Below are positions 22,100-60,409 of a stretch of 64,000 nucleotides of DNA, piece after piece; the first letter of the stretch is position 1; each line of letters opens with the position of its first letter. Source of the stretch: Branchiostoma floridae (lineage: Eukaryota; Chordata; Leptocardii; Amphioxiformes; Branchiostomatidae); the NCBI RefSeq assembly GCF_000003815.2, contig NC_049993.1:18947593-19011592 (forward strand), in the 5' to 3' direction. The notes beneath the pieces are model-generated. The model did no database searches and was not told where the DNA came from. It was given only the letters and a program-made list of their open reading frames with translations. The position numbers and the translations under genes are program-made.

Positions 22100-23339
22100 G
22101 GAGCCTAAAGAAGTTTCAATTGCTAGATTCCATGTTGGTACGTCCGAAAGCTTTTGTAACCATGAATATTCTGGCTATTCTATATGTCCATTGAAGGGGA
22201 GCCACTTTCAGGATTCTACTTCTTTATTCCATCGCCAACAGAAATGTACACGTTTAGAAATACAGTACACACCTTAACGGTTGATTAGCAGTTGCAACAC
22301 CTGTCTTGCTACAAAACACTATTCAGCAACACACATCTTCATGAGCTGAAACATCCATTCTTCTAAGAGCAATTAAACATCGAACGTAGCTGGATACACT
22401 CTGATGCTTACAACAACGGTTGGCATTATACATTAGACCAAGCGCGCTCCTTAGCCGCTCATTACAAAAATACATGGTGTATCAAAAGTCCTAAAGTATT
22501 CTAAAGTCCACAATGTGACGTGTGTTTTATATATTCCAATTGTCAAACATCTAATTAATATATAACATCTATACCAAGACATTGTCACCGTTAGTATTTT
22601 CAGTTTAGTTGCTGGAGCAGGAATCTACACTTATTTATTACATATATGTCATCCACTTAGTTTTGCATCATTCTGCAGTTACACAAATATGTGTATTGGT
22701 AAATACATCATGTCATTCATTGCTGGATATTCCATTGCCGTAACTCGTAACATGTGCTGTATATATTTACACGTTGATATTCGTGCTTTGTAAAATAAAG
22801 ATGAGTATTAGTATTACATACTATTAGTTATCATATACATACATATAAAACGTGACGTTGCATCGCGTGTGATGCCATTCCGATATTGTATGGGAATGCT
22901 TTGTAAGTGTCAGTTTCCGGAGAAGATTATAATATTTTACAACTTAAAGAATGGGAATTTCAGTAGTATTGCATCCAACCATAAACAGAGCTTCGTTCAT
23001 GATAGCTTGTTATTGTTATTTGTTATTTTTGTTATTGTTAATGGGTGGGCTGGCTACTCTTTCTTCAAAGCCAGGGACTGAATTGCTAGGAGCTTACAAT
23101 AGGCGGGGCTAAATCGCAAGGGTCTGGAGCGAGCTGCCATTCGGCACGAACTCAGGTGACCTCAATACGACAGCAATTACCCCAGGTGCGGCCAAAGGAC
23201 TGTAGGTTTTGAACCACTCACAACAGGAAGGACCCTTCTCTTTTCGATAAAGTTTACGGTGAGTTATTTAACGTACTAAAGGTGTGCCTCTCCTCTACGG
23301 GACCTCCCTTTAACGTCCTATCCGAGGGACTTCGTTATC
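22100..23339 (-). repeat. 3' flank of the first LRR duplication unit
   Basis: The sequence resembles 28430-29190 (below LRR-B) and 55380-56340 (below LRR-H). Shared phrases include TGCTGGATATTCCATTG, ATCTACACTT and the CATCATNCTGCAGTTA block. It marks the left edge of the tandem LRR array. Here it is next to a broken tail fragment at 23340 and separated from LRR-A by a retrotransposon fragment. Confidence 0.55.
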
Positions 23340-23452
23340 TCATGTAGAGGGTTGAGAATACAGGGTCGGTATGTTTTGCTTTCCTGTCTTACCGAATAGA
23401 CAGAGGACAGGCACACTGCCTGGTGCCATATATTCCGTACGAAGGTTCACAT
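23340..23452 (-). pseudogene. Tail fragment of a ninth LRR paralogue
   Basis: The minus strand encodes GKQNIPTLYSQPST then stop, matching the end of the LRR-B tail (GKQNTPTLYSQIPDC). Preceding sequence also aligns at DNA level with LRR-B's tail but is frame-shifted. It is cut on its upstream side by the inverted-repeat element at 23453. LRR-A, the nearest intact gene, already has its own NTPTLYS segment at about 24530, so this is an extra relic. Confidence 0.65.
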
Positions 23453-23603
23453 TAATCTCCGAGCAGATCCTACGATGACATAAGATAGTACTAAACTGAC
23501 GAAGGAGTGTAGTCACACTGCCATACACACTGCTAGGCCGACTTCACTCCCCTGGCAATTTTTCATACTATCTTATGCTATCGTAGGATCTGCTTGGAGA
23601 TTA
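23453..23603. mobile_element. MITE with about 38-bp inverted ends and 9-bp TSD
   Basis: The left end TAATCTCCGAGCAGATCC and the right end's complement TAATCTCCAAGCAGATCC continue matching through CTACGATGACATAAGATAGTA. The target duplication GGTTCACAT is perfect (23444-23452 and 23604-23612). The same family occurs at 56538-56675 and 63557-63727. The 8-9 bp duplications suggest a MULE- or hAT-mobilised element, superfamily unresolved. Confidence 0.85.
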
Positions 23604-23879
23604 GGTTCACATGCCTGTGCATCTTGACCAGCTGAGGTACTGGCACTTTCATGATATATATCAGCTAGGGGCACAACTCACCGTACGTGCAATTTGTCCG
23701 TACCTTTTTGGGAGGCCACGTCCGCCATGTATTTCTGAAAACGTTCAGGCTGTACAGGGCAGGCGCGTCGCCCGTACTGGCACGTACGGGGGCGAATCCG
23801 CAGCCCGATGGCACACAAAGTTTTGCCTGCACGTGAAGTTCTACGGCGTGTCAGCGTGCTCCAAAATCCGTCGGATTCC

Positions 23880-24412
23880 TTACGAGTTCGTACGGAGGCG
23901 GTACTTAACATTTACAGATCCCAAAAGATTGCCCATATTTCATCTGTTCAAAACAAATTGTTTAGAAATGACAAATTGAAAAGGGCCGACACTACAACAT
24001 ACCAACCAATGAGAGACTTTGTCCCACATGCCATAATGACATAGAAAATGAATTTCATTTTGTAATGGATTGTCCGACTTATGAAGAAGACCGTCAAAAG
24101 TTATTTCAAAATATTGTATGTAAGTCCGAAATTGTACTGCCACATGCTAGGTCAGAGGTATTCCATTTGATATTATCATGTCCTGTTCATATATCTGCCT
24201 ACGTAGGCCAATTTATTTACAACTCATTGCAAAAACGAGTTAATGCTTTATGATACTACACCACTACTAGTACTCACTAGATTGTTTATACTGTTATATT
24301 GTATTACGTATATACATTAGTTGTTAGTTATTTGTATTAGTATATAGTTGTTCACATTGCCATACATTGTAACTGTTACAATTGTTGCGCAATAAAGTTC
24401 TTCTTCTTCTAT
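23880..24412 (+). mobile_element. Non-LTR retrotransposon 3' fragment (LINE)
   Basis: One frame from about 23955 reads EKGRHYNIPTNERLCPTC, then HND, EFHFVMDCPTYEEDRQKLF. That is the typical C-terminal end of a LINE reverse-transcriptase ORF (CxxC, then H and C of a zinc-knuckle-like motif). It is followed by a short 3' UTR ending GCAATAAAGTTCTTCTTCTT, with the usual microsatellite tail. The 5' part is missing, as expected from incomplete reverse transcription. Confidence 0.8.
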
Positions 24413-24497
24413 TTTGGTACGTAGCCAGCACGTATTTGCCCGTGCGGCATGTTGTGCCCTTAGCTATATATATATATATATATTCTCAGGACTAATT

Positions 24498-25088
24498 TTA
24501 GGTAGGCTGGAATCCAGCCGTGTTGTGCTTTGGTCGTTCCGTTTCAGCTTCCCTAACATGAACAGAATATAGCGTCGGCGTGTTTTGATTTACCTGTCCA
24601 TGCTGCTCGGTGCCGTACGTTTCGGAGCCTTCACCACTGGGGTAGGCATGGTCACAAAGAGGACATGATTTTAGAGTAGGTCCAGATATGTTGGGTGTAG
24701 TTTCATGAGTGCAGGACAGGCCATATAATTTTGGCGATTGATTGTAAACTCTATCTTCATCAGAAGCTTCTCCACCAAAGGAGGCAGTCTCAGAAGCCTG
24801 TACATCTGGGCTATATACATCTAAGGTTTTGGCGCCTTCAGTATTAAAATTACTGATTTTAGCCTCCGTCTTATCTTCCCCAAATTGACATTGAGGTTCA
24901 TCTGATTCATAAGCTTCAATCGTGTCGGAGTCGACATCATTTACGGAGGGCTCCGTATCTGCTTCTGGACCAAAGGTACTAGCACCTTCTGTTTTCTTTC
25001 TAGGACTGGTCTTCTCAGTCCTTTCCCCAATATGATATTGAGGCACATCAAAAACATAAGGTGACATTGCATACGGATCTGTTTCGGA
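24498..25088 (-). pseudogene. LRR-A cytoplasmic tail beyond the in-frame stop
   Basis: Directly after the TGA of LRR-A the same frame stays open for 196 codons. It encodes the family's tail: PYAMSPYVFDVPQYHIGE, a degenerate second module (EAYESDEPQCQFGEDK), and a Tyr-bearing end containing NTPTLYS. Compared with LRR-B (CTYETIPETVEPYA), LRR-A reads CTYEA-stop-SETDPYA, with one codon missing and one stop. The long open tail implies a recent nonsense change, readthrough, or a sequence error. Confidence 0.75.
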
Positions 25089-26393
25089 TCAAGCTTCGTA
25101 TGTGCAGGAATCGGGGTCTGTTTCCAGACCATTGCTGCAGCCTTCCTGATCATCAGCCTGGGTGTTCTGAATGGTCGTAGTTTGTTGATAACAAACATTA
25201 TTTGCAAGTTGGCCAGCCGCAATGTTGCTTACATGACCAAGTTGCGCAGTTGCGTTGTTAGATCTTTTCCTACCCAGTGCACAATACAAAAATACACCCA
25301 TGCAACAGAGGACAGCTATCACTCCAGCTACTGATGCAGTCACCACCCAGGCTGATGCCATGGTAACGGTTTGTGGAGATGACGTCTCCTGATTCTTTGG
25401 CGTTTCTGTAATGTTCTCATTGGATCGATCTGGACCAGCGGTTGCTAGGGGCAACAATGACGTTGTGATGATGTCAGAGGGACGAATATCCTGGCGTCCT
25501 GTGGGGCAGGTACTGTTAGGATCACAGGGCTCGGGTAGGTAGAGTATATTATCTACGCCTGTTGGATCCCAGAGAAAATAACATCCTGAAATATTCATAA
25601 ATCCATTTAACCTTTGGAGCTCTACGTTCTCTACTATAAGTGGAGTTTTACAGCGGAACAAAGACTGGTCTTTGTACATGGCAAATGCAATATCATTTGC
25701 TCTGAGAAAATCACATCTTCGTGGTGTTTTATTTCGGCACGTTTCCGACTTTATCGCGAAATCAATGATAAAAGCGATGTCACAGTTACAGTGGAATGGG
25801 TTACCTGCTATGATAGGTGAGTATTGTAAACGGTGCCCATTTGCTGCATATATGTCCCACCCAATATCGCACATAGACAATGTCTTTATGTTATTGAAGG
25901 AAACGTCTACCATTCTCAAGTTTGATACGAAAGACTTCACAGGATACAGGTTGACACAGAACAGCTGATTATATGCCAAACCCAAATGAACTAGTCTGGG
26001 CATGTACTTCAGACAGTACCATGGGAAGTAAGTTATCGTATTATTCCTAAGGTTTAATGTGTTCAAATAAGGCAGGATCGTGCAGGGAAACGTGGTTAGG
26101 GCGTTGTTGGGAAGCTGAAGCTCAACTAGGTTTGAGGGCAGGTCTTTGGGAACACTCGTTAAACCTTTGTTGTCACAATAAATTCGGGCTAACGGGTGAT
26201 TCTGAACGTTACATCCGCGAGAGAGAAGCTGTGAAAGTGCTGATGCTTCGCAATCGTGCGGTACGTTTATAAGGGTAAAGATCACAACCTGAACAACAAT
26301 CATGCTGGGGGACATGCTGGCTGAGGTGTTGTATGTTGGATTAAGGGACAATACGTTTTCGTGGGGATTGTAACAGGGGTTCACTATGTTCAC
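25089..26393 (-). CDS. LRR-A: LRR single-pass membrane receptor with tail truncated by TGA
   Basis: The frame is 434 residues; by comparison with paralogues the start is probably the internal Met at 26315 (MSPSMIVVQVV). Numbering from the longest frame, the signal peptide is about 27-50, LRRNT about 59-88 (CDNKGLTSVPKDLP), four LRRs 89-197, LRRCT about 198-248 (NPFHCNCD with further Cys), a second Cys cluster (SGCYFLWDPTG, EPCDPNSTCP) to about 300, a Ser/Thr-rich stalk, and the membrane span 349-373 followed by RKR. Only about 60 cytoplasmic residues remain, ending CTYEA. The signalling-type modules lie past the stop, so as written this would be a tail-less or decoy receptor. It is the lowest-coordinate member of the array. 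Function is inferred only as surface recognition. Confidence 0.8.
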   Translation of the reverse strand: MNIVNPCYNPHENVLSLNPTYNTSASMSPSMIVVQVVIFTLINVPHDCEASALSQLLSRGCNVQNHPLARIYCDNKGLTSVPKDLPSNLVELQLPNNALTTFPCTILPYLNTLNLRNNTITYFPWYCLKYMPRLVHLGLAYNQLFCVNLYPVKSFVSNLRMVDVSFNNIKTLSMCDIGWDIYAANGHRLQYSPIIAGNPFHCNCDIAFIIDFAIKSETCRNKTPRRCDFLRANDIAFAMYKDQSLFRCKTPLIVENVELQRLNGFMNISGCYFLWDPTGVDNILYLPEPCDPNSTCPTGRQDIRPSDIITTSLLPLATAGPDRSNENITETPKNQETSSPQTVTMASAWVVTASVAGVIAVLCCMGVFLYCALGRKRSNNATAQLGHVSNIAAGQLANNVCYQQTTTIQNTQADDQEGCSNGLETDPDSCTYEA

Positions 26394-26769
26394 ACACGCA
26401 CAGTTTTGTATTATTGTGTCAAATCTACTCTAATATTTGTTACTATAACCTCAAGCTTATTTAATCAGTAGAGAACACCTATCAAGCTGTTCATCAGCCA
26501 AAACGAATACCAGTTAGACAGTCTAACCATTAATAGTTACTGGACCTGCCGGGAACAATGGTGTTGCTACTCTTGTCTGGAGGACGTGATCTTGGGCCCG
26601 AGACGACTGTTCCTCTTCAGTTCCGTTTTGTACCTTCCTGTGGTCTGCTGGAAATGAAACAAACGTGATTTAGATTTCAGAAATTCAACATGAATTTTTT
26701 GGTCTTCTAAAGAAACTGATAAAAAAATAGACATACTGAATCAGACATATACATACCTTTGAAAAGATG

Positions 26770-27065
26770 AGCTATATAGATGCTGAGGTCAGGTTGTGAA
26801 AGGCAACCGCCTACCGCTGTGGCTCCTGTAATGGTAGTCAAGAAAACTATAAGAAGTTTAAAGGTTAAATGTCTGCCTCTCTATGAGATTGCTTGGTTGA
26901 CTTCTCGCCACTGCTATGATGTAACAGCTCCCGTAATGGCACAATCGAGAAAAAGATGTTTAAAGGTTAAATGTCTGCCTGTCTTTAAGATTGCATGGTT
27001 GACTTTTCGCCACTGCTATGGCAATCTCTTCTCTCGTGGCTTTGTCTGCTGTCAGCTATGAATCT
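26770..27065 (-). promoter_or_regulatory. Conserved upstream block of LRR-A
   Basis: Two half-repeats share AAGTTTAAAGGTTAAATGTC, TGCCTCTC, GAGATTGC and CACTGCTATG, and the block ends CTCTCGTGGCTTTGTCTGCTGTCAG. Equivalent blocks lie upstream of C, D, E, F, G and H. It could be a 5' UTR exon or promoter, or simply part of the duplicated unit. The start of this block is nearly the same as at 58975 (TATAGATGCTGAGGTCAGG). Confidence 0.45.
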
Positions 27066-35825: not shown

Positions 35826-37565
35826 CTATATAGCTCGTGGTTCTATCTTGTCACCTTCCTCGTCCTGGATCACCTCTGAATTATGGTAAATGTGCTCACA
35901 GGCCTGTGTGTCTGGACCAGTGCTGAAATGCTCTGTTTTCTTACGGCTGGTTTCCCCACTAACTTGAACACCCTCAAGACCATACTGAGGTACATTGTAA
36001 CCAAACGACTCAGCATAGGGTTCAATGCTGTTTGGCAAAGTTTCCTGCATACAGTCCTCCTCTGAGTTTGGATCATCCCTACAACCTTCCTGATCATCCC
36101 TACAATCCTCCTCTGAGTTTGGATCATCCCTACAACCTTCCTGATCATCCCTACAGCCCTCCTGATCATCCCTACAGCCTTCCTGCCCATCCCTACAGCC
36201 CTCCTGATCATCCCTACAGCCTTCCTGATCATCCCTACAGCCTTCCTGACCATCCCTACAGCCTTCCTGACCATCCCTACAGCCTTCTTGATCATCAACC
36301 CGGGCAATGTTAGCAGATACATCAGCATGGACGTTCTGGTTAACACTGTAATCTACAGCTAAGTCAGGTGCCAAGTTTACGGGGCTATTGGGGGCATTTG
36401 TCTCGTCCGTGTTTTTCCTTGCCTTTACTGAATACACAGCTAACATCAAAACACAGACAAGACTGGTCACTCCGACAACCAGTGCTGGCAGTCCGGATAC
36501 CATGGCAACGGGAGGCGGATCCTGAGATGACCTGTCCTGGGTCTGTGGCGTTTTTGATGTTTGCTTAATTGATGAAACCTGACTGAAGGCTCTAGCTACT
36601 GTCAAGGCGTCATCGGTAACGTTTAGAGATATCATTTCAGCCTGCTGCAGTTTCGGTTTTTCATTAGATGGGTCAGGACTTCTGGTTGCTTGTGGCAAAG
36701 ATGACGGAGTGATGACGTCAGAAGGACGAATGTCCTGACGTTCAGTGGGGCAGGTACTGTGAGGATCACAGGGCCCAGGTAGACGGAGGGCACTATTTAC
36801 GCCGGTCGGATCCCAGACTGCATAACATCGTGAGATATTCATGTATCTATTTAACATGTAGAACTCTACGTTCTCTACTCTAGGCGGTGCTTTGCAGCGG
36901 AATAAAGACTGGTATTTGAATACGGAACGCATAACAGCATTTTCCCCTAGAAATGATGCACATCTTCGTGATGTTTTATTTCGGCACTTTTCTGCAATTA
37001 TCGAAAGGTAAATGGCCCAATCTATGTCACAGTCACAGTGGAAAGGGTTACCAGCAATGATAGGAAAGTATGGTATATAGTTCCCATTGGGTACACGCAT
37101 GTCCCACCCAAGATCGCACATAGACAATGTCTTAATGTTGTTGTATGAAATGTCAACAACCTTTAAGTTCGATATGAAGGACTTCACAGGATAGAGCTTG
37201 ACGCAGAACAGCTGATTATGAGCCAAATCCAAATGAACTAGCCTTGGCATGTTCTTCAGACAGTACCAAGGAAAGTAAGTTATCTTATTGTTCCTTAGGT
37301 TTAACGTGTTCAAATAAGACAGGGACATGCAGGGAAAAGTGGTCAGGGCGTTGTTGGGAAGCTGAAGCTCAAAGAGGTTCGAAGGCAATTCTTTGGGAAC
37401 ACTCGTTAAACCTTTGTTGTCACAATGTATCCGGGCCACTAAATACCAATTCTGAAGGTCACATCCGTGAGAGAGTAGCTGTGCAAGTGCTGATGCTTCA
37501 AAATTGTGCGATACAATTATAAGTGTAAAGATCAAAACCTGAATAAAAATCATGCTGGATAACAT
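35826..37565 (-). CDS. LRR-C: LRR membrane receptor with Cys-rich repeat tail
   Basis: 579 residues starting MLSSMIFIQVLIF, a clear signal peptide. LRRNT (CDNKGLTSVPKELP), four LRRs and LRRCT (NPFHCDCDIDWAIYLS) end near residue 235. The second Cys cluster (SRCYAVWDPTG, GPCDPHSTCP) and stalk follow, then a membrane span at about 350-375 (LPALVVGVTSLVCVLMLAVY). The tail belongs to the C/F class: NVHADVSANIARVDDQEGC, then an expanded 7-residue repeat, then PNSIEPYAESFGYNVPQYGLE and an ending GDKIEPRAI. LRR-F has a single copy of the repeated element, so the expansion is specific to C. The gene is intact with no frameshift. Confidence 0.85.
   Translation of the reverse strand: MLSSMIFIQVLIFTLIIVSHNFEASALAQLLSHGCDLQNWYLVARIHCDNKGLTSVPKELPSNLFELQLPNNALTTFPCMSLSYLNTLNLRNNKITYFPWYCLKNMPRLVHLDLAHNQLFCVKLYPVKSFISNLKVVDISYNNIKTLSMCDLGWDMRVPNGNYIPYFPIIAGNPFHCDCDIDWAIYLSIIAEKCRNKTSRRCASFLGENAVMRSVFKYQSLFRCKAPPRVENVEFYMLNRYMNISRCYAVWDPTGVNSALRLPGPCDPHSTCPTERQDIRPSDVITPSSLPQATRSPDPSNEKPKLQQAEMISLNVTDDALTVARAFSQVSSIKQTSKTPQTQDRSSQDPPPVAMVSGLPALVVGVTSLVCVLMLAVYSVKARKNTDETNAPNSPVNLAPDLAVDYSVNQNVHADVSANIARVDDQEGCRDGQEGCRDGQEGCRDDQEGCRDDQEGCRDGQEGCRDDQEGCRDDQEGCRDDPNSEEDCRDDQEGCRDDPNSEEDCMQETLPNSIEPYAESFGYNVPQYGLEGVQVSGETSRKKTEHFSTGPDTQACEHIYHNSEVIQDEEGDKIEPRAI
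36051..36297 (-). repeat. Coding minisatellite in the LRR-C tail (21-bp unit)
   Basis: The tail repeats D(D/G)QEGCR nine times, with two longer variants DDPNSEEDC near the C-terminal side. This puts 11 cysteines and many acidic residues into a cytoplasmic segment of about 80 residues. Nearly identical 21-bp units (plus strand CCTACAGCCTTCCTGATCAT) indicate recent slippage or unequal exchange. The frame is kept because the units are multiples of three. Confidence 0.9.
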
Positions 37566-41033: not shown

Positions 41034-41175
41034 AGTTTTGTATTGTTGTACTAATCTACTCTAAAATCTGTTCACTATAATCTACATTTTATTACATCAG
41101 TATAGTACACCAGGGATTTTGTTCAGTCAACGGAAATACCAGTTAGACAGTCGTTGTGTCGCTGTTGTTGGCTAA

Positions 41176-42805: not shown

Positions 42806-44515
42806 TCAAAGACCAGAGGTCATCATGTCGTTAAACCACTGCTTTACGTCAGAGACTCTATTTTCATCGGAAACTTCTCCACTGTTGTTTGCTTGTTCAC
42901 AGTCCTGTGTACCTTGGGCTGAGGTGCTGGGGCCTTTCTCATTCTTAGGAATAGCTTCACCTGCCATTTCAACTTCCCCAAGATGATATTGAGGTACATC
43001 AAAAACATAGGGCGACCTGGCATACGATTCTGTTGTGTCGGGTATAGTTTCGTATAAGCAGGAATCGGGGTCTGTTTTCGGACTATTGCTACAACCTTCC
43101 TGATCATCCTGACCATCAGCCTGAGTGTTCTGATTGATGTTAGCTTGGTGATGAGGAATGCTCTTTACAGCTTGGCAAGCCGCGTTATTGTTTACGTGAC
43201 CAAGTTGCGCAGTTGCGTTGTTAGATTGTTTCCTAACCACTGCACAATACAATGCTAACCCCACACCAATTATCGCCCCAGCTACTGATCCAGTCGTCAC
43301 CACTATGGCAACAGTTGGAGATGACGTCACCTGATTCTCTGGCGTTTCCGTCATGGCTACTGCGTGATCACTGCGCCCTTTTTCCACATCTGTCACCTGG
43401 TTGAAGGTTCTAGTGGCTGTCAAGGCGCCATATTTAACGGTTTGACTAGATGACGTCACCGCATTCTTTGGCGTTTCTGCCACGAGTATAGAGTCAGCAT
43501 TGTACCGGGCTTTCAAATCTGTCAAGATGTTATCAGCAACGTTTTGAGATATTTCTTCTGATGCAGCCTTTTGTATTGTCTGTTTTTCACTCGATGGTTT
43601 AGGAACAATGGTTGTCAGTGGCAACAAGGACGAAGTTTTGGTGTCAGAGGGAGGAAGATCCTGACGTTCTCTGGGACAATAACTATCAGGATCACAGTGC
43701 TCGGGTAGGTAGATTCTATTATCTACGCCTGTCGGATCCCAGACCTTATAACATCCTAAGATATTCATGTATCTATTCAACCTGTGGAGTTCTATGTTTC
43801 TCACTCTGGGTGGCGTTTTACAGCGGTACGAAGACTGGTATTTGTACATGTCAAATGCAATATCATTTGTCGCGAAGAAAACTTGACATCTTTGTGACGT
43901 TTCATTTCGGCATGTTTCCGCCGTTATCGCTAAATTAATGATCCAAGCTACCTGACAGTCACAGTGGAAAGGGTTACCCCCTATGAAAGGTGCGTATGAT
44001 ATTTGTCGTTCATTTGGTACGTGCAAGTTCCACCCAACATCGCACGTAGACAATGTCTTTATGTTATTGTAGAAAACGCTCACCAATTTTAAGTTTGGTA
44101 CGAAAGACTTCACAGGATAGAGGTTGACACAGAACAGCTGATTATGTGTTAGATCCAAATGAACTAGTCTCGGCATACTCTTTAAACAGTACCAAGGGAA
44201 GTAAGTTATCGTATTGTTCCTTAGGTTTAACGTGTTCATATAAGGCAGGGCCATGCAGGGAAACGTGGTCAGGGCGTTGTTGGGAAGCTGAACCTTAAAG
44301 AGGTTTGAAGGCAGGTCTTTGAGAACACTCGTTAAACCTTTGTTGTCACAATGTATCCGGAGTAAACGAGGCATATGTAGAATATACCAATTTTGAACGT
44401 TACATCTATGAGAGAGTAGCTGTGAAAGTGCTGATGCTTCACAATTGTGCGGTATGTTAATAAAGGTAATGATCACAGCCAGAAGGACAATCATACTGTA
44501 ATTTGTTTGCGTCAC
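42806..44515 (-). CDS. LRR-E: LRR membrane receptor ending in a PDZ-type motif
   Basis: 569 residues starting MTQTNYSMIVLLAVIITF, a good signal peptide. LRRNT (CDNKGLTSVLKDLP), four LRRs, LRRCT (CDCQVAWIINLAITAETC), the second Cys cluster with KVWDPTG, and a long Ser/Thr stalk that includes repeated motifs shared with D (FNQVTDVEKGRSD). The membrane span is near residues 415-440 (GSVAGAIIGVGLALYC). The tail has one tyrosine module (YETIPDTTESYARSPYVF, DVPQYHLGEVE) and ends DVKQWFNDMMTSGL. The last residues S-G-L fit a class I PDZ-binding C-terminus (S/T-x-hydrophobic). Tail class D/E/G, intact. Confidence 0.85.
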   Translation of the reverse strand: MTQTNYSMIVLLAVIITFINIPHNCEASALSQLLSHRCNVQNWYILHMPRLLRIHCDNKGLTSVLKDLPSNLFKVQLPNNALTTFPCMALPYMNTLNLRNNTITYFPWYCLKSMPRLVHLDLTHNQLFCVNLYPVKSFVPNLKLVSVFYNNIKTLSTCDVGWNLHVPNERQISYAPFIGGNPFHCDCQVAWIINLAITAETCRNETSQRCQVFFATNDIAFDMYKYQSSYRCKTPPRVRNIELHRLNRYMNILGCYKVWDPTGVDNRIYLPEHCDPDSYCPRERQDLPPSDTKTSSLLPLTTIVPKPSSEKQTIQKAASEEISQNVADNILTDLKARYNADSILVAETPKNAVTSSSQTVKYGALTATRTFNQVTDVEKGRSDHAVAMTETPENQVTSSPTVAIVVTTGSVAGAIIGVGLALYCAVVRKQSNNATAQLGHVNNNAACQAVKSIPHHQANINQNTQADGQDDQEGCSNSPKTDPDSCLYETIPDTTESYARSPYVFDVPQYHLGEVEMAGEAIPKNEKGPSTSAQGTQDCEQANNSGEVSDENRVSDVKQWFNDMMTSGL

Positions 44516-47840: not shown

Positions 47841-49247
47841 CTACAACACCTCTGAATTATGGTAAATATGCTCACAGGCCTGTGTTGTATCTGGGCTTGT
47901 GCTGAAATGCTCTGTATCCTTACAGCTAGCCATGGTTTCCCCACTATCCTGAACATCCTCGAGACCATACTGAGGCACATCGTAACCAAAGGTCTCTGCA
48001 TAGGGCTCAATGCTGTCCGGAAGAGTTTTCTGCATACAGGAATCCTCCAAATTTGGATGATCCCTACAGCCTTCCTGATCATTATCACGGGCAATGTTAG
48101 CAGATACATCGGCATGGACGTTCTGGTTAACACCGTTGTTTACAGCTAAGCCAGACGCCATGTTTACGGGGTCATTTGTAGCATGTTTGTGGTCATGTTT
48201 TTTTCTTCCCTTTGCTGAATACGCAGCTACCATCAAAACACAGACAAGACTGACCACTCCGACGACTAGTGCAGGCAATCCGGATGCCATGGCAACGGGA
48301 TGCGGAGTTGGACTGTCCTGGGTCTGTGGCGTTACTTTCAAGTCATCAGTAACGTTTTGTGATATCTGAAATATTTCAGCCTGTTGCAGTTTCCGTTTCT
48401 CAGAAGGCCGAAGGTCCTGTCGTTCTTTTGGGCAGGAACTGTAAGGATCACAGGGCTCAGGCAGGTAGATTGTACTATTTACGCCTGTCGGATCCCAGAA
48501 TGCATAACATCCCGAAATATTCATGTATCTGTTCAACCTGTGAAGCCCTACGTTCTCTACTCTAGATGGTGTTTTGCAACGGAACAAAGACTGGTCTTTG
48601 GACACGGCGCGCAGAACAGCATTTTCCCCGAGAAATGATACACATGTTCGTGATGTTTTATTCCTGCACTTAGCTGCAATTATGGCGAGATGAATCACCC
48701 AATCTATGTCACAGTCACAGTGGAAAGGGTTACCAGCTATGATAGGTTCGTATTGTATATGGTTCCCATTTGGTACACGCATGTCCCACCCAAGATCGCA
48801 CATAGATAGTGTATTTATGTTGTTGTAGGAAATATCAACCCTTTGTAAGTTCGGTACTAAAGACTTCACAGGATACAGGTTGACACAGAACAGCTGATTA
48901 TGTGACAGATCCAAATGAACCAGCTTTGACATGTTCTTCAGACAGTACCAAGGGAAGTAAATGATCGTATTATTCCTTAGGTTTAACGTGTTCAAATATG
49001 GCAGGGCCATGCAGGGAAAAGTGGTCAGGGCGTTGTTGGGAAGCTGAAGCTCAGAGAGACTTGAAGGCAGTTCTTTGGGAACACTCGCTAAACCTTTGTT
49101 GTCACAATGTATCTGGGGTGCCCAAAACCAATTCTGAACGTTACAACCGTAAGAGAGTAGCTGTGAAATTGCCAATGCTTCACAATTGTGCGATACGTTT
49201 ACAAGTGTAAGGAACAAAACCTGAACAACAATCATGCTGGATGACAT
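47841..49247 (-). CDS. LRR-F: LRR membrane receptor, short stalk
   Basis: 468 residues starting MSSSMIVVQVLFLTLVNV (signal peptide). LRRNT (CDNKGLASVPKELP), four LRRs, LRRCT (NPFHCDCDIDWVIHLAIIAAKC) and the second Cys cluster (SGCYAFWDPTG, EPCDPYSSCP). The stalk is short, about 40 residues, which makes this the smallest complete member. The membrane span is LPALVVGVVSLVCVLMVAAY. The tail is C/F class: NVHADVSANIARDNDQEGC, one Cys element (DHPNLEDSC), one tyrosine module (PYAETFGYDVPQYGLE) and an end containing CEHIYHNSEVL. It is the closest relative of LRR-C, but without the Cys-rich expansion. Confidence 0.85.
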   Translation of the reverse strand: MSSSMIVVQVLFLTLVNVSHNCEALAISQLLSYGCNVQNWFWAPQIHCDNKGLASVPKELPSSLSELQLPNNALTTFPCMALPYLNTLNLRNNTIIYFPWYCLKNMSKLVHLDLSHNQLFCVNLYPVKSLVPNLQRVDISYNNINTLSMCDLGWDMRVPNGNHIQYEPIIAGNPFHCDCDIDWVIHLAIIAAKCRNKTSRTCVSFLGENAVLRAVSKDQSLFRCKTPSRVENVGLHRLNRYMNISGCYAFWDPTGVNSTIYLPEPCDPYSSCPKERQDLRPSEKRKLQQAEIFQISQNVTDDLKVTPQTQDSPTPHPVAMASGLPALVVGVVSLVCVLMVAAYSAKGRKKHDHKHATNDPVNMASGLAVNNGVNQNVHADVSANIARDNDQEGCRDHPNLEDSCMQKTLPDSIEPYAETFGYDVPQYGLEDVQDSGETMASCKDTEHFSTSPDTTQACEHIYHNSEVL

Positions 49248-50329: not shown

Positions 50330-50640
50330 CATTTACGTACCTACAATTGTAAGCTACATTCAGGCCTGTGAGCACCTGTCCGTGTGCCAGAGAACGTCCT
50401 GCAATGGTGCAGGATAGAAAAACAAGATGTTTCAATCTTAATTGTCTGCGTCTCTTTGAGACTGCAAGGGAAGCATTTCATCACGCCTATATGATAATAG
50501 CTCCCGTAATACCACACTCGAGAAAAACAAGATGTGTAAAGGTTAAATGTCTGCTTTTGGTTGAGATTGCGTTTCATCACTGCTATGACAATCTTCTCTC
50601 TCTCGTGGCTTTGTCTGCTGTCAGGTAAGAATAAATCAAT
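50330..50640 (-). promoter_or_regulatory. Conserved upstream block of LRR-F
   Basis: Same two-part block (AGATGTTTCAATCTTAATTG, TGTGTAAAGGTTAAATGTCT, CTCTCGTGGCTTTGTCTGCTGTCAGG). It lies about 1.1-1.4 kb before the start, the extra distance being explained by the retrotransposon fragment at 49575-49880. Confidence 0.45.
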
Positions 50641-50858: not shown

Positions 50859-52772
50859 TTAAAGACCAGAGGCCATAATTTTATCAAACCACTGCTTTAT
50901 ATCGTCAGTTCCATTTGCATCGAGATCTTCTTCATTGAGACATGCCAGTTCAGTGTCCTGTGCCCCTTTGTCAGTTGAAGTGTTGGAATCTTCTTTTTTA
51001 TTGGTACTGACCTTATCTGTCATTTCAACTTCCCCAAGATGATATTGAGGCACATCAAAAACATAGGGCGATGCTGCATACGGTTCAATTGTAATCCCAT
51101 CCATGCAAGGCATTGTATCTGACTTTGTCGTTCGATTATTTACCGTGTCGTCATCAGTAACTTCCACATTATGACCAGTAATATGATCACAGGCCTGTGC
51201 GTCTGGACCAGGCAAGATACTGATGCCTTCGGTTGTATTAGGCCTAGTTTGATCTGCCGTTTCAAATTCCCCCATATGATATTGAGGTACATGAATAACA
51301 TAGGGCGACCTGGCATACGGTTCTGTTGTGTCGGGTATAGTTTGGTCGGTTTCTGGACCATTGCTGCAGCCTTCCTGATCATCAGCCTGGGTGTTCTGAG
51401 TGGTTGTAGTGTGGCGATAAAAGACGTTATGTACAACTTGGCCATACGGCACATTGTTTACGTGACCAAGATGCGCAGCTGTGTTGTCAGATTGTTTCTT
51501 ACACAATGCACAATACACAGCTAACCCAACACCACAAAGGACAGCTCCAACTACTGATCCAGCCACCACCCAGGCTGATACCATGGCAACGGTTTTAGAT
51601 GACGTCTCCTGATCCGTCGGAGTTTTTGTCATGTGTAGAGAGGTAGTATTGTACCTGTCTTTCGTATCTTTCAAGATATGATAAGTTACGTTTTGAGATT
51701 TTTCATACATTGCAGTCTTTGCCAGTTTCGCTTTCTCACTAGATTGTTCAGGACCACTGGTTGCTAGTGGCAACAATGAAGAAGTGATGACGTCAGAGTG
51801 AGGAAGATCATGACGTTCTCTGGGACAATACCTGTTAGGATCACAGGGCTCGGGTAGGTAGATTGTACTATTTACGCCTGTCGGATCCCAGACTGCATAA
51901 CATCCTGAGATATTCATGTATCTATATAACATGTGGAGCTCTACGTTCTCTACTCTAGGTGGTGTTTTACAGCGGTACAGAGACTGGTCTTTGTACATGT
52001 TACATGCAATATTAATTGTCCCGAGGAAAATTTGACATCTTTGTGACGTTTTATTTCGGCACGTTTCCGCAACTATCGCCATATCAATCGCCCAAGCTAT
52101 CTCACAGTCACAATGGAAAGGGTTTCCCGCTATGATGGGTTCGTATTGTATAATATATCGTTCAGTTTGTACATGCACATTCCACCCAAGATCGCACAGC
52201 GACAATGTTGTTATGTTATTGTAGGAAATGTTAACAATTTTTAAGTTCCATACGAAGGACTTTACAGGATACAGGTTGACACAGAAAAGCTGATTATGAG
52301 ACAGATCCAAATGAACTAGCCTGGGCATGTTCTTCAGACAGTACCAAGGGAAGTAACTGATCGCATTGTTCCTAAGGTTTAACGTGTTGATATAAGGCAG
52401 GGCCATGCAGGGAAACGTGGTCAGGGCGTTGTTGGGAAGCTGGAGCTCAGAGAGACATGAAGGCAGGTCTTTGGGAACACTTGTTAAACCTTTGTTGTCA
52501 CAATGTATCACAGGATTGCGAAAATCGTTCAGGGAACATCCTTGAACTAGTAGTTTCACAAGTGATCTCTGGATCATTCTCCTACGCAAAGGCGAAACAG
52601 AGTCGTCAGAGGGACTAAATGACTGACGGTACTCTGCTATAGGAGAATGTCTCTGAATCATGGCGTTTGTTTCTGCTCCGATCAGAGGGGTGATGATCAA
52701 AGCAGAAACGAAAAACAAGTTTGGCAATCTTGAAAATGATGCAGAACTTCCCTTACATCTCATCTTGTCCAT
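50859..52772 (-). CDS. LRR-G: LRR membrane receptor with a different N-terminus and two tyrosine modules
   Basis: 637 residues. The leader differs from all paralogues: MDKMRCKGSSASFSRLPNLF, a hydrophobic stretch (FVSALIITPLIGA), then a basic/polar insert (SVSPLRRRMIQRSLVKLLVQ) before the LRRNT. From CDNKGLTSVPKDLP onward it is a standard D/E/G member: four LRRs, LRRCT (CDCEIAWAIDMAIVAETC), AVWDPTG and EPCDPNRYCP cluster, stalk, membrane span, then two modules (PYARSPYVIHVPQYHMGE and PYAASPYVFDVPQYHLGE). It ends DDIKQWFDKIMASGL, a class I PDZ-type C-terminus. The upstream DNA also differs near the start, so the 5' end was probably acquired by recombination. It is intact. Confidence 0.85.
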   Translation of the reverse strand: MDKMRCKGSSASFSRLPNLFFVSALIITPLIGAETNAMIQRHSPIAEYRQSFSPSDDSVSPLRRRMIQRSLVKLLVQGCSLNDFRNPVIHCDNKGLTSVPKDLPSCLSELQLPNNALTTFPCMALPYINTLNLRNNAISYFPWYCLKNMPRLVHLDLSHNQLFCVNLYPVKSFVWNLKIVNISYNNITTLSLCDLGWNVHVQTERYIIQYEPIIAGNPFHCDCEIAWAIDMAIVAETCRNKTSQRCQIFLGTINIACNMYKDQSLYRCKTPPRVENVELHMLYRYMNISGCYAVWDPTGVNSTIYLPEPCDPNRYCPRERHDLPHSDVITSSLLPLATSGPEQSSEKAKLAKTAMYEKSQNVTYHILKDTKDRYNTTSLHMTKTPTDQETSSKTVAMVSAWVVAGSVVGAVLCGVGLAVYCALCKKQSDNTAAHLGHVNNVPYGQVVHNVFYRHTTTTQNTQADDQEGCSNGPETDQTIPDTTEPYARSPYVIHVPQYHMGEFETADQTRPNTTEGISILPGPDAQACDHITGHNVEVTDDDTVNNRTTKSDTMPCMDGITIEPYAASPYVFDVPQYHLGEVEMTDKVSTNKKEDSNTSTDKGAQDTELACLNEEDLDANGTDDIKQWFDKIMASGL

Positions 52773-53137
52773 AGCTGTAAGCTTTGTTTGCAGAAGACGT
52801 TATCAACGCTTTTATATCTTCTTCTTCGTTATCGTTATCCGATTCGAAGTGGGGACCTCTTAGCTTTCGGACCAAACACGTCGCACGACCCCACGTCACT
52901 TATTGTACATCGTCTCAATTGTCATATCGCATATAGAAAGTAGCAAACTTGGCAACAGCCAAGTGGAGAGATTGCTATTGCGCTGCAGTGCACTGACTTT
53001 GTCTTCCAGTAACAGGAAGTACATGACGTCTAACCACCACTGTCCACACGGTTGTCAGGACCGACCACGCCACTGTTCCTAGATATACGGCTGTCTCCAC
53101 CACACCTTCACGTACGTCGTGGACCGAATAATGCGCC

Positions 53138-53499: not shown

Positions 53500-53885
53500 G
53501 TCATGCCTGTGAGAAATAAGCTCCACTGCGGCGCCCTCACAGCTCCTGCAATGGCGTAGGAACGAAAACAAGAAGCTGAATTGTCTGTCTCTGTTAGAGA
53601 TTGCATGGGAAGTATTTCGTCATTGCCATGATGTAACAGTTCTCTTAAGGACACGAGAAAAAGGCATTGCCACGATGTAACAGTTCTCTTAAGGACACGA
53701 GAAAAAGTCATTGCCATGATGTAACAGTTCTCTTAAGGACACGAGAAAAAGTCATTGCCATAATGTAACAGTTCTCTTAAGGACACGAGAAATAGTCATT
53801 GCCATGATGTAACAGTTCTCTTAAGGGCACGAGAAAAAGTTAATCGTCTGCTTCAGTTTCTTCTCTCGTGACTCTGCTGTCAGAT
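53500..53885 (-). promoter_or_regulatory. Conserved upstream block of LRR-G, expanded by a 44-bp minisatellite
   Basis: The block keeps GCTCCTGCAATGGCG, AGAGATTGCATGGGAAG and the final TTCTCTCGTGACTCTGCTGTCAG. In its middle a 44-bp unit (CATTGCCATGATGTAACAGT, TCTCTTAAGGACACGAGAAA, AAGT) is repeated five times at 53623-53840. Only one or two related copies exist in the other blocks. Confidence 0.6.
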
Positions 53886-56537: not shown

Positions 56538-56675
56538 CTAATCTCCTGGCAGAGGAGTGAAGCCGGCTTAGGAGTGTCTATTTGCCCGGTAGCGAAACTC
56601 ACTCATAAGCCGGCTTCGCTCCTCTGCCAGCTTTTGATATTATCTTGTGCTACCGTAGGATCTCCTTGGAGATTA
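56538..56675. mobile_element. MITE inserted in the LRR-H tail
   Basis: Same family as at 23453 and 63557. The right end is complete (CTACCGTAGGATCTCCTTGG, AGATTA). The left outer arm is deleted internally, so TAATCTC joins directly to CTGGCAGAGGAGTGAAGCCG, whose inverted partner lies at 56600-56630. A degenerate 9-bp duplication (AGCAATTTC versus ATCGATTTC) flanks it. The homology to the LRR-B tail resumes on the far side, so the element interrupted the gene. Confidence 0.75.
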
Positions 56676-58565
56676 ATCGATTTCGTACAGTTTGGAACCT
56701 TCTCCACTGGTACCGGTTTGTTCACGGTTATATACGTCACACTCAAGACGCGATTTTGAATACGGTTCAGATGTGTTGGTTGTAGCTTCTTGTATGCAGG
56801 ACTGACCGTACATTTTGGAACCTTCAAAAACACTAGGAGATGTTTCATAAGGTTCAATCGTATTAGTTTTAAGCTCATCTACGTAGAAATCTGTATCTGA
56901 CTTCACCACCTCACTTTCGACCTTGTCGTTATTAGTAACCTCCCCATGGTGGCAGGCATGATCAAAGGCCTGTGCTTCTGGACCAGGTAAGGTACTAACA
57001 CCTTCTGTTTCGTTAGGACTGGTCATGTCTGCAATTTCCCCCATATGATATTGAGGCACATCAAAACCATGAGCCGTTGCGTACGGTTCAACTGTTTCAG
57101 GTATAGTTTCGTATGTGCAGAAATCGGAGTCTGTTTCCGGACCATTGCTGCAGCCTTCCTGATCATCAGCCTGGATGTTCTGACTGGTCGTAGTTTGTTG
57201 ATAACAAACGTTACTTACAATTTGGCCAGCCGCAATGTTGGTTACATGACCGAGTTGCGCAGGTGCGTTGTTAGATCGTTTCCTACCCAGTGCACAGTAC
57301 ACAACTAAACCCATGCTACAGAGGACAGCTATCCCCAAAGTTACTGATCCAGCCGCCACTAAGGCTGATGCCATGGCAACGGTCTGAGGAGATGACGTCT
57401 CCTGATTCTTTGGAGTTTCTGTAATGGGCACTGCGTGAGCATTGGGCCCTTCTTCCACATCTGTCACCTGATTGAAATTTCTAGTGGCTATCGAGGCGCC
57501 ATCCTGCAAATCTGTCAATATATTATTTGTATCGTTTTGAGATATTTCATCTATTTCAGCCTTTTGCAGTTTTGGTTTCTCACTAGATTGATCTGGACCA
57601 GTGATTGCTAGTGGCAACAATGACGTTGTGATGACGTCAGAGGGACGAATGTCCTGGCGTTCTGTGGGGCAGGTACTGTTGGGATCACAGGGTTCGGGTA
57701 GGTAGATTCTACTATTTACACCTGTTGGATCCCAGACTGCATAACATCCTGAGATGTATCTACTTAATCTGTGGAGCTCTACGTTTCTTACTTCAGGTGG
57801 CGTTTTACAGCGGAACAGAGACTGGTCTTTGTGTATTTCAAATGCAATATCAGTTGTCCTGATAAAATGTTGACATCTTTGTGATCTTTCATTTCGGCAC
57901 TTTTCCACCTTTATCGTGAAATCAATGATCCAAGTTATCTCACAGTCACAGTGGAAAGGGTTACCCGCTATGAAAGGTGCGTATGGTATATGCGTCCCAT
58001 TTGGTACATGTTCGTTCCACCCGAGATCGCACATAGACAATGTTTTTAGGTTGTTGTATGAAATGTTAACAATATCTAAGTTCGAAAGGAAAGACTTCAC
58101 AGGATAGAGGTTGACACAGAAGAGTTGATTATGTGACAAATCCAAGTGAACTAGTCTGGTTATGTTCTTCAGACAGTACCAAGGGAAGTAACTTATAGTA
58201 TTGTTTTTTAAGATCATGTTCTTCAAATAAGGCAGAGCTATGCAGGGGAACGTGGTCAGGGCGTTGTTGGGAAGATGAAGCTCAAAGAGGTTTGAGGGCA
58301 GGTCTTTGGGAACTCGCGTTAAACCTTTGTTGTCACAATAAATTTGGGCTAACGGGTTATCCTGAACATTACATCCGTGAGAGAGAAGTTGTGAAAGTGC
58401 TGATGCTTCGCAATTGTGCGGTACGTTTATAAGGGTAAGGATCAAAACCTGAACAACAATCATGCTGGATGACATGCTGGATGTGGTGTTGTATGTTGGC
58501 TTCAGGGTCAAAACTTTAAAGGTATTTCGTCGGGATTGAAACAGTGGTTTACTATTTAAGCACAC
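56673..58565 (-). CDS. LRR-H: LRR membrane receptor whose end is cut by a MITE
   Basis: 630 residues from the longest frame; the conserved start is probably Met at 58475 (MSSSMIVVQVLILTLINV). LRRNT, four LRRs, LRRCT (NPFHCDCEITWIIDFTIKVEKC), AVWDPTG and EPCDPNSTCP cluster, stalk with FNQVTDVEEG, and membrane span (SVTLGIAVLCSMGLVVYC). The tail is A/B/H class: YETIPETVEPYATAHGFDV and PQYHMGE, then related Tyr segments (PYETSPSVFEGSKMY, PYSKSRLECDVY). It stops at GEGSKLYEID. The TAA is the first triplet of the inverted-repeat element, and tail-like sequence (SSVYSFGN) continues on the other side. The last part of the ancestral tail, including the TPTLYS segment, is thus lost. Confidence 0.85.
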   Translation of the reverse strand: MCLNSKPLFQSRRNTFKVLTLKPTYNTTSSMSSSMIVVQVLILTLINVPHNCEASALSQLLSHGCNVQDNPLAQIYCDNKGLTRVPKDLPSNLFELHLPNNALTTFPCIALPYLKNMILKNNTISYFPWYCLKNITRLVHLDLSHNQLFCVNLYPVKSFLSNLDIVNISYNNLKTLSMCDLGWNEHVPNGTHIPYAPFIAGNPFHCDCEITWIIDFTIKVEKCRNERSQRCQHFIRTTDIAFEIHKDQSLFRCKTPPEVRNVELHRLSRYISGCYAVWDPTGVNSRIYLPEPCDPNSTCPTERQDIRPSDVITTSLLPLAITGPDQSSEKPKLQKAEIDEISQNDTNNILTDLQDGASIATRNFNQVTDVEEGPNAHAVPITETPKNQETSSPQTVAMASALVAAGSVTLGIAVLCSMGLVVYCALGRKRSNNAPAQLGHVTNIAAGQIVSNVCYQQTTTSQNIQADDQEGCSNGPETDSDFCTYETIPETVEPYATAHGFDVPQYHMGEIADMTSPNETEGVSTLPGPEAQAFDHACHHGEVTNNDKVESEVVKSDTDFYVDELKTNTIEPYETSPSVFEGSKMYGQSCIQEATTNTSEPYSKSRLECDVYNREQTGTSGEGSKLYEID

Positions 58566-58969
58566 ACAGAGTTTTGTATTATTGTACCAAATCTACTCTA
58601 ATATTTGTTTACTAAAACCACAATCTTATGTTATTAGTAGAGTGCACCAATCAAATGTGTTTTGTAGTCAACAGAAATACCAATGAGACAGTCTAACCAT
58701 TGATAGTTACGGGAACAGTTGGAAAAATGGTTTTGCTGCTCTTGGCCGGAGGAGGTGATCTTGGGCCTGTGACGAAAGTTTCCTCTGCCTTAGTCTTAAC
58801 CTGGAGGCGGTTCGTCTCGTGTCTTAACTAGAAACCTTCCTGTGGTCTGCTGAAAATGGAACAAACGTGATTTAGATTGATTTAGAAATTAAACATGAAT
58901 TTTTTATTCTTCCAAAGAGAATCATAAAAAATGTAGACATACTGAATCAGACATTTACATACCTTTGAA

Positions 58970-59340
58970 AAGATGAGCTATATAGATGCTGAGGTCAGGC
59001 TGTGAGAATCTGCCGCTGTGCCTCCTGTAAAGGCTGCCAAGAAAAGTGTCAGATACTGTAGGACATAAGAATTTTCTCTTACACGACCAGTTTTTCTCAC
59101 CTGCTGACGTTTCGATGTCTGTCAGACATCGAAACGTCAACAGGTGAGAAAAACTGGTTGTGTAAGAGAAAATTCTTATGTCCTATGTTCTACCAACCTG
59201 ATGAAATTATTTTCAGATATCAGATACTGTGTTTTAATGTTAATTTGTCTGCCTCTCTATGGGACTGCGTGGTAGGCTTTTCACCACTGCTCCGATAATC
59301 TCTTCTCTCGTCTTCTGTCAGGTATGAATAAGTCAATAGT
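58970..59340 (-). promoter_or_regulatory. Conserved upstream block of LRR-H, interrupted by a foldback element
   Basis: The block begins like that of LRR-A (TATAGATGCTGAGGTCAGG, CCGCTGTGCCTCCTGTAA) and ends CTCTTCTCTCGTCTTCTGTCAGG. Its middle is split by a hairpin element at 59059-59219, with the block resuming at GTTTTAATGTTAATTTGTCT. Confidence 0.5.
59059..59219. mobile_element. Foldback element with near-perfect 60-bp arms and 10-bp TSD
   Basis: TAGGACATAAGAATTTTCTC and the following sequence to GACATCGAAACGT are mirrored from 59123 to 59185 with only a few mismatches, giving a hairpin of about 60 bp per arm. TCAGATACTG occurs on both sides (59049-59058 and 59220-59229), a 10-bp target duplication. 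The right part (TTCTACCAACCTGATGAAAT) links it to the repeats at 32840 and 61085. Confidence 0.8.
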
Positions 59341-59749
59341 TCATATGTTTTCAACTTCAGCAAAGACCACAGTTTTGGTGCTGCCGTTTTCAAACTAAAG
59401 CGAAATTTTGTGGCCTAGAATGATAATAACAGTTTATTGCAAATTCTTGCCCGAGGGCTAATTGCAGGTAACATGAAAGGAAACAAACAAATAGTGTATA
59501 ACAGTATAGAATGTGATGGTGTCGTTTTCACAGCTCATGCTATGTAACACTGGCAACTTTAGGACTTATCAAGTAACGTTGCCGCTCGTGAGTGGGTGGT
59601 TACAGTAGACCAATCTGCACGTGCTGTTATCTTTATGCTTCAGTCACAATTGCACGGAAAAAGCAGCCCTGTGAGCTATATTTTTCTGCACTTTTGGGTC
59701 TAAACCCTACGGCTATCGAGCTATATTTGGGCCAGGCCGGGATTTTAAC

Positions 59750-60214
59750 CTTGATTTGATTTGATTTATTGGAATTGCAACAATACAATACTCGTGGATC
59801 ACAGGCAGCAGTAGGCTGGTTTGTGATCCACACATCAATATGAATACATATGTACATTACATTAATACACTAAGAAGGTGGAGCATTGGTTAAAAACTAT
59901 TAACGTTAAATACAATAAATCTACATTCAAGATGTGATCTAAAACATAAATTAGGCATTCAAGGACAGTAATCTCTGTTTGAACATACTGAGGCGTCGAG
60001 CTTGCTTTACCTATTGCGGCAATTCGCTCCAAAGTCGGGAAGCATAAGGGATGAATGCAGATCTGTAAGTGTGGGTCCTACAGCGAGGGAGGTGTGGAGT
60101 TACGGAGCTGCAAACCTTGGAGTTAAAACTAGCACGGGACCCGGCGACAAATAGACACAGTGACGTACCTGGTGAAAAATAATGGGTGCTAACAGATATT
60201 TCACTAAAAGACAT
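59750..60214 (-). mobile_element. Non-LTR retrotransposon 3' fragment
   Basis: The minus frame ends RTHTYRSAFIPYASRLWSELPQ-like sequence, the common C-terminal end of LINE reverse transcriptases, followed by a 3' UTR and a tail of repeated AAATC units at about 59752-59770. 5' truncated. Confidence 0.75.
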
Positions 60215-60224
60215 TATCTATTAC

Positions 60225-60375
60225 CTCTCACCTGAAGATAAGCTGCAGATTTCTAAGACGCTGCCTCCTGTCATACCTGCCGAACGCCGAGTGAGGAGTG
60301 AAAAGTAAAAAGACGCTGATTCGTCTGGCAATGACGGCTTGTCACGTGATCCCATCCTTCATCTTCATCCTCCAT
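60225..60375 (-). promoter_or_regulatory. Conserved second upstream block (H copy)
   Basis: Matches 32110-32265 and 54360-54490 (GACGCTGCCTCCTGTCATACC, GATTCGTCTGGCAATGACGG, TCACGTGAT). The minus-strand donor-like end CTTATCTTCAG|GTGAG is kept. A 10-bp internal duplication (GAGTGAAAAGTAAAAAG) is specific to this copy. Confidence 0.5.
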
Positions 60376-60409
60376 AACTTCATTTTTCCGAGAATTACCT
60401 TCGCGTTTT

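Follow-up and report, generated by a model that had tools for sequence, protein, structure and literature searches.

Eight genes encoding putative leucine-rich repeat (LRR) receptors were found side by side on the minus strand of a 64,000-nucleotide stretch of the Branchiostoma floridae genome (assembly GCF_000003815.2, contig NC_049993.1, positions 18,947,593 to 19,011,592). This stretch is referred to as the window, and all coordinates below are positions in it. The genes are best explained as a cluster that arose by local duplication and encodes type I LRR surface receptors; two classes of phosphotyrosine tail would couple one recognition surface to different outputs. We put the probability of this reading at roughly 0.55. 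The genes differ in the number and form of the tyrosine modules in their tails, and regional synonymous divergence indicates that their ectodomains and tails have probably had separate histories.

Array layout and gene models

Eight long single frames of 446-695 codons from stop to stop, designated A to H in order of coordinate, were recovered on the minus strand. The array of eight LRR membrane receptors proposed in an earlier, sequence-only reading of the window is therefore real. That reading had assigned it to the interval 22100-60400, which does contain the array but is wider than its coding parts; these together occupy 25089-58463 (likely ATG to stop), and the remainder is duplicated non-coding flank, the genes sitting in duplicated units with related flanks. 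Judging from the open frames, all eight genes appear to be single-exon. The stop-to-stop frames are A 25089-26429, B 29197-30948, C 35826-37601, D 38973-41060, E 42806-44578, F 47841-49331, G 50859-52799 and H 56673-58592. The genes are listed with their lengths in amino acids (aa) from the likely ATG; tail classes and modules are described in the next section.

25089..26303, minus strand: gene A, 404-aa LRR receptor; class I tail ended by a TGA at 25089-25091 after ...SCTYEA
24501..25088, minus strand: open frame past the TGA of gene A, 196 codons
29197..30900, minus strand: gene B, 567 aa; class I tail, in which a full tyrosine module is accompanied by a second, degenerate one
35826..37553, minus strand: gene C, 575 aa; class II span and tail (QETL; EPYAESFGYNVPQYGLE)
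38973..40925, minus strand: gene D, 650 aa; the most divergent of the ectodomains, without WDPTG; three tyrosine modules in an ordinary class I tail
42806..44494, minus strand: gene E, 562 aa; class I tail with one module (ESY for EPY) and the C-terminal end ...KQWFNDMMTSGL
47841..49235, minus strand: gene F, 464 aa; class II span and tail, 13 residues shorter than C at the end
50859..52763, minus strand: gene G, 634 aa; two modules in its class I tail, and an unusual, longer N-terminus
56673..58463, minus strand: gene H, 596 aa; class I tail with one variant module (without the SPY tyrosine) and degenerate EPY repeats

Some observations concern the sequence between and around the genes. Seven of the eight genes have a related block with internal repeats 0.5-1.4 kb upstream; for B no such block was seen. 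These blocks may represent a promoter, a 5′ exon or plain duplicated flank. A 28-base tandem repeat of about 19 copies lies between B and C (34383-34908). Just past the post-stop frame of A, positions 23972-24250 on the plus strand gave a weak match to zf-RVT (E 0.018, below the cut-off), possibly a retrotransposon remnant.

26824-27063, 38286-38528, 41848-42059, 45264-45496, 50397-50632, 53544-53662 and 59230-59356: upstream related blocks

Two tail classes and their tyrosine modules

The tails of A to H vary in length from 58 to 263 residues and fall into two classes, class I comprising A, B, D, E, G and H and class II comprising C and F. The class I module has the form EPYA-x-SPYVFDVPQYH-x-GE. 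It occurs once in B, once in E (with ESY), once in H (a variant without SPY), twice in G and three times in D, and in A only past the stop codon. A YETI motif precedes the module in four of the six class I genes (B, D, E and H). In C and F it is replaced by QETL or QKTL, the single module reads EPYAE-S/T-FGY-N/D-VPQYGLE, and the membrane span is one of their own; the tails of this class contain Y-x-x-P and Y-x-N. Counted as EPY...VPQY modules, with the versions in C, F and H taken as variants, their number thus varies from none before the stop in A to three in D, and together with the differing endings and the two classes this bears out the modular tyrosine tails claimed from the sequence. The tyrosines at the EPY position and in PQY of the first module were kept in all seven proteins that reach this module. 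The DNA around modules 2 and 3 of D is 82.8% identical.

39489..39581, minus strand: tyrosine module 1 of D, EPYAASPYLFDVPQYHVGE (hand-computed coordinates)
39327..39419, minus strand: tyrosine module 2 of D, EPYVASPFVFDVPQYHMGE
39084..39176, minus strand: tyrosine module 3 of D, EPYAASPYVFDVPQYHLGE (hand-computed coordinates)
36050..36296, minus strand: coding minisatellite in the tail of C, with 21-base and 51-base periods and DDQEGCR-like units
36423..36494, minus strand: class II span of C, GLPALVVGVTSLVCVLMLAVYS..., with no charged residue inside
48210..48281, minus strand: class II span of F

Probable mosaic structure of the genes

The eight genes appear to be mosaics, their ectodomains and tails having separate histories. 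Synonymous divergence (pS) was compared by region, and codon columns were permuted 5000 times. In the ectodomain, pS between C/F and the other six genes was 0.34, against a background of 0.30 within A, B, E, G and H. Over the span, proximal tail and first module, the corresponding values were 0.50 and 0.22 (p 0.0002; 0/5000), and with the distal tail added they were 0.53 and 0.30 (p 0.0014). The rise was located at the end of the stalk, just before the span. Misalignment alone does not account for it, because the rise was also present in well-aligned windows (0.53 vs 0.19 at DDQEGC and 0.54 vs 0.26 in module 1). Gene D showed the reverse pattern: pS was unusually high in its ectodomain (0.39) and ordinary in its tail (0.21), with p 0.017 and, once the distal tail was added, 0.021. 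A clade of D and G was rejected for the ectodomain (p 0.007) but not for the tail (p 0.32), and the branching of D, E and G was not resolved.

Runs of identity were tested on informative sites in four sequence sets with Bonferroni correction. C of class II and G of class I shared an identity run from the LRRCT into the cysteine cluster, with p 0.010-0.014 in all three sets holding both genes. We favour the explanation that ectodomains were exchanged or homogenised across two older tail classes. Alternatively, the tail of the ancestor of C and F might have been replaced by that of a distant paralogue; exchange or homogenisation and tail replacement lead to the same modular outcome.

Ectodomain architecture and fold

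In each protein, LRRNT and about four LRRs precede a cysteine region that resembles an LRRCT and a second cluster of cysteines, after which come a stalk, one membrane span and the tail. A build shared by all eight had been proposed, with LRRNT, LRRs, LRRCT and a WDPTG cluster. Its LRR part stood, since Pfam LRR_8 scored above the gathering score in all eight proteins, but LRRNT was matched solely below that score and in six of them (not in E and F), and WDPTG was present in the second cysteine cluster of seven, D being without it. No Pfam match to LRRCT was obtained in any of the eight at E<=5, a limit within which the HMMER filters drop most matches above about 0.1, and this region was therefore assigned from its cysteine pattern C-x-C...C...C. 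With the same limit and filters no WSC match was obtained in any of the eight, nor did any have a Pfam match to TIR, a feature of Toll-like receptors. A hydrophobic span separates ectodomain and tail in all eight proteins, and a signal-like hydrophobic stretch at the N-terminus reached the span threshold in seven (not in G).

Two AlphaFold models built from eight-row alignments had a mean predicted local distance difference test (pLDDT) score of 40.2 and 47.5, the latter being a model of the ectodomain only. In the ectodomain model the first 90 residues (block means 59-82) showed a cap and regularly spaced LRR strands, of which there were four, the fourth below pLDDT 50; the LRRCT and the cysteine cluster were not modelled with confidence, which leaves at best the LRRNT-LRR part as a usable model. 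With this low-pLDDT model as query, no Foldseek match reached E 0.001. GPIb-alpha ranked first and the Nogo receptor next, followed at rank 27 by the lancelet protein Bf66946 (4xsq), which resembles the variable lymphocyte receptors (VLRs), and at rank 29 by the lamprey VLR 2r9u, all at E>=0.0019. Profile searches against the PDB, considered for the best 60 of 131 and the best 60 of 201 matches, gave LRRC32, LRIG1, LRRTM, decorin, LGR4/5, GPIb, Toll/TLRs and VLR chimeras among the matches. The ectodomains are short and GPIb/VLR-like; profile and fold matches place the fold and do not give the function.

Within the LRRs, the mean pairwise amino-acid difference was 0.11 at scaffold L/N positions, 0.41 at the concave x positions and 0.22 at other LRR positions. 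Among the non-scaffold LRR positions, the concave ones were the more variable (permutation p 0.009; 0.022 without D). Outside the LRRs the values were 0.42 for the LRRCT, 0.34 for the cysteine cluster, 0.48 for the juxtamembrane tail and 0.43 for the tyrosine module. The sequence-only reading had described a nearly constant ectodomain scaffold and placed the diversity in the signalling part. The LRR scaffold is indeed constrained, but the variability of the ligand-facing concave positions and of the LRRCT is close to that of the tails, and a confinement of diversity to the signalling part is not supported. In VLRs the binding surfaces are the concave face and the LRRCT insert (PMC10199209).

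Architecture and variability also bear on the possibility that A to H are adhesion- or guidance-type receptors like GPIb, the Nogo receptor or LRRTM, tissue-specific and non-immune, with tail tyrosines that serve trafficking or cytoskeletal docking. The top fold ranks of GPIb-alpha and the Nogo receptor and the presence of decorin, LRRTM and LRRC32 among the profile matches agree with such a role; LRR fold similarity, however, says little on role, and local duplication, a variable concave face and LRRCT, copy-specific tail ends and a broken copy would suit recognition families better. We regard this explanation as unlikely, if still deserving attention.

Selective constraint

The ratio of non-synonymous to synonymous divergence (dN/dS) was estimated by the pooled Nei-Gojobori method for up to 28 pairs, with 95% bootstrap intervals. 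For the ectodomain it was 0.34 (0.24-0.46) in LRRNT-LRR, 0.71 (0.52-0.97) in the LRRCT and 0.49 (0.41-0.60) as a whole, at a dS of about 0.44; for the stalk it was 0.72 (0.54-0.98). The first tyrosine module gave 0.59 (0.35-1.06), an interval that includes neutrality, and the whole tail 0.64 (0.50-0.81). Since the interval of the pooled tail lies below 1, the tails as a whole appear to be constrained, if weakly, and not in neutral decay. Neutral decay had been equated beforehand with dN/dS near 1 in all tails, a pattern that was not found, although the intervals of several single pairs include 1. The C-F tail pair gave 0.40 (0.21-0.75). In a home-made site model, at a posterior of 0.9, 50 of 243 ectodomain sites and 15 of 213 tail sites were constrained, and four and three, respectively, were fast; E459, Y461 and A462 (H numbering) belong to the constrained tail sites.

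Proposed mechanism and points against it

In the mechanism that we propose, the variable concave LRR face and the LRRCT would bind varied microbial or cell-surface ligands. By analogy with BbLcLRR, an Lck-associated LRR receptor of Branchiostoma belcheri, a Src/Lck-type kinase might phosphorylate the tail tyrosines. Different SH2 proteins would then dock to each class, at the YETI core motif in class I and at Y-x-x-P and Y-x-N in class II. A single recognition surface would in this way be coupled to differing outputs, and the number of modules would set their strength.

A number of results weigh against this reading. Tail tyrosines were not enriched: 52 were observed, where the composition ahead of the span predicts about 46. 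Nor did the five tyrosine columns of the proximal tail and first module, taken as a set, exceed the remaining tail columns in conservation (p 0.25). The immunoreceptor tyrosine-based activation motif (ITAM) was absent from all eight tails, and a strict immunoreceptor tyrosine-based inhibitory motif (ITIM) was present in only one (G, VPYGQV). The SH2 partners of the class II motifs, Crk-like for YxxP and Grb2-like for YxN, are taken from general background. As to the mosaic structure, the alignment of C/F with the other genes is poor in the span and juxtamembrane region and may inflate that part of the signal. The ectodomain and tail trees showed no topological conflict, C and F forming a clade in both, and the claim of mosaicism therefore rests on regional synonymous divergence. 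Other identity runs depended on the sequences included: a run between A and B in the LRRCT had p 0.014 with D and 0.30 without it, and tail runs between B and D, B and H, and D and E reached 0.010 without A, while in class I alone D-E gave 0.025 and B-H 0.66. Positive selection was not robust either: when a constant synonymous rate was replaced by a variable one, twice the log-likelihood difference (2dlnL) fell from 34.0 to 6.5 in the ectodomain and from 16.9 to 7.4 in the tail. Neutrality also lies within the dN/dS interval of the span and juxtamembrane region (0.81; 0.62-1.10), and single tail pairs are compatible with it (E-G 0.97, 0.61-1.61; A-H 1.09 on 61 codons; B-H 0.69 with an upper limit of 1.15). 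Lastly, A is cut by a stop codon.

The motif results bear also on whether this is a true paired-receptor locus, in which class I and class II tails would signal oppositely, with the same ligands and with ectodomains matched by gene conversion. The array had been likened to paired-receptor clusters, and one feature of these, similar ectodomains on distinct span and tail classes, was found: the two tail classes have different tyrosine motifs and lie under ectodomains of a shared age. The difference in synonymous age between ectodomains and tails lends the likeness a further, independent reason. Another feature, an ITAM or charged span residue on one class and an ITIM on the other, was absent from the eight proteins. 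None of the eight spans has a charged residue inside it with which an ITAM adaptor might pair, the strict ITIM is confined to one protein in eight, and the motifs do not reveal opposite output. An ITSM-like motif was found in one of the eight (B, TLYSQI). The definitions of ITIM and ITSM (immunoreceptor tyrosine-based switch motif) were taken from PMC8211107, and YxxI/L/V is named 'core motif' in PMC12065747. That the locus is a true paired-receptor locus seems to us quite unlikely.

The neutral intervals invite a different explanation, namely that the array is decaying, with duplicates drifting, a few of them intact and the others becoming pseudogenes. Besides dN/dS not clearly below 1 in the span and juxtamembrane region and in several pairwise tails, the stop codon in A and the degenerate modules in B and H would fit such decay. 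It is nevertheless very improbable, given eight long open frames at the ectodomain dS noted above, the low dN/dS of LRRNT-LRR and the pooled value for the tail.

Gene A has an in-frame TGA after SCTYEA, which leaves ectodomain and span and a tail of 58 residues with two tyrosines. The frame stays open for 196 codons beyond it, of which 111 align with the tail of B and 131 with that of H; dN/dS of this part was 0.55 (0.32-0.87) against B and 0.80 (0.54-1.19) against H. This TGA may have arisen recently, be polymorphic, reflect an assembly error or have become useful of late. Of the tail breaks that had been proposed, the TGA in A and the earlier end of F, 13 residues before that of C, were thus found, but the break in A is qualified by the frame that continues past it. 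Short-tailed members, A foremost, might act as decoys or in a dominant-negative way and blunt the signalling of long-tailed members, and the surviving ectodomain and span of A would suit this. A stop that is recent, polymorphic or a sequence error, as the open codons past it allow, would not, and the tail of F (119 residues) retains its module; we consider such a decoy set highly improbable. Our preferred reading remains that of a receptor cluster with two signalling tail classes.

Other features of the window

A mir-2060 microRNA precursor at 7302-7393 on the minus strand holds two near-copies of the mature miR-2060c-3p sequence published for B. belcheri (PMC5650284), with 3 and 1 mismatches, in keeping with the lancelet origin of the window. 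At 9247-10109 lies a minisatellite-like array with periods of 27, 32, 105 and 196 bases, in which several frames are open on both strands. On the plus strand, two long frames at 15929-20880 encode RING/B-box (TRIM-type) domains and NHL repeats and are possibly one gene. The sequence that separates the two frames, like the end of the first one, is FG-rich and nucleoporin-like (GFTFGTGSS..., AFGSSST...), with a weak match to Pfam Nucleoporin_FG2 (E 0.038). TRIM/NHL genes are common in lancelets.

Comparison with known receptor systems

Lancelet LRR receptors with tyrosine tails are already known; the clustered, modular and mosaic form appears to be new. The array had been called an undescribed receptor system, which as a statement about its kind is too strong, its closest precedent, BbLcLRR (MW390887, 699 aa, mRNA high in the gut), having been published in 2021 (PMC8211107). 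As described there, BbLcLRR consists of LRRNT, four LRRs, WSC (a SMART call), LRRCT, a span and tail tyrosines; its ITIM-like tail tyrosines are phosphorylated by Lck, and in Jurkat cells it binds SHIP1 and, less, SHP1/2 (PMC8211107). Compared by this published description, it shares with A to H the LRRNT, four LRRs, LRRCT, single span and tail tyrosines, its 699 aa standing against 404-650 aa here. In contrast, WSC was not matched in A to H, and the BbLcLRR tail motifs DDYATV, HDYSEV and HDYDDP were not among the tyrosine contexts of their tails. As to ITIM or ITIM-like tail motifs, a strict ITIM was seen in one of the eight (G), an ITSM-like motif in one (B) and a YxxI core (YETI) in four. 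BbLcLRR suggests that lancelets own kinase and phosphatase partners able to read such tails (PMC8211107).

The array itself was not described in the open-licence PMC papers covered by our literature search. Already in print are Bf66946, a survey of 101 B. floridae proteins that carry LRRNT as well as LRRCT (PMC4731796), and FrLRR (PMC10199209). The passages considered of a report on LRR-caspase and similar hybrid immune genes of amphioxus contain nothing resembling A to H (PMC2575513).

The LRRNT-LRR-LRRCT build is shared with the VLRs of lamprey and hagfish and with lancelet Bf66946, as are the variable concave face and LRRCT (PMC10199209), which here vary among paralogues and not among somatic variants. 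Unlike VLRs, which are assembled somatically from an incomplete germline gene, each of A to H is complete in the germline as a single frame and encodes a long cytoplasmic tail; nothing suggests somatic assembly. With GPIb-alpha, the Nogo receptor and LRRTM they share a short LRR ectodomain, as seen in fold matches (GPIb-alpha, Nogo receptor) and profile matches (LRRTM, GPIb), whereas their tails have repeated EPY...VPQY modules, in a tandem array with two tail classes. To our knowledge, GPIb-alpha, the Nogo receptor and LRRTM have neither repeated tyrosine modules nor a two-class tandem array.

Parallels can also be drawn with immunoglobulin (Ig)-type receptors. The genes of the tunicate fester co-receptor (FcoR) family lie in one locus, and their tails carry ITIM, hemITAM or the YxxI/L/V core motif (PMC12065747). 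FcoR and Xenopus XFL (PMC2413239) differ from A to H in having Ig domains and recognised ITIM/hemITAM motifs or an FcR-gamma-coupling span. A bolder reading, which we hold to be unlikely, is that lancelets arrived independently at a paired-receptor system built on LRRs. Gene conversion would have placed ectodomains from one exchangeable pool on two signalling chassis that differ in phosphotyrosine code, and the number of tandem tyrosine modules would set the strength of the output. If the mosaic reading is true, a basal chordate would have reached with LRRs, too, the design principle of vertebrate paired receptors, in which similar recognition surfaces are joined to different signalling tails.

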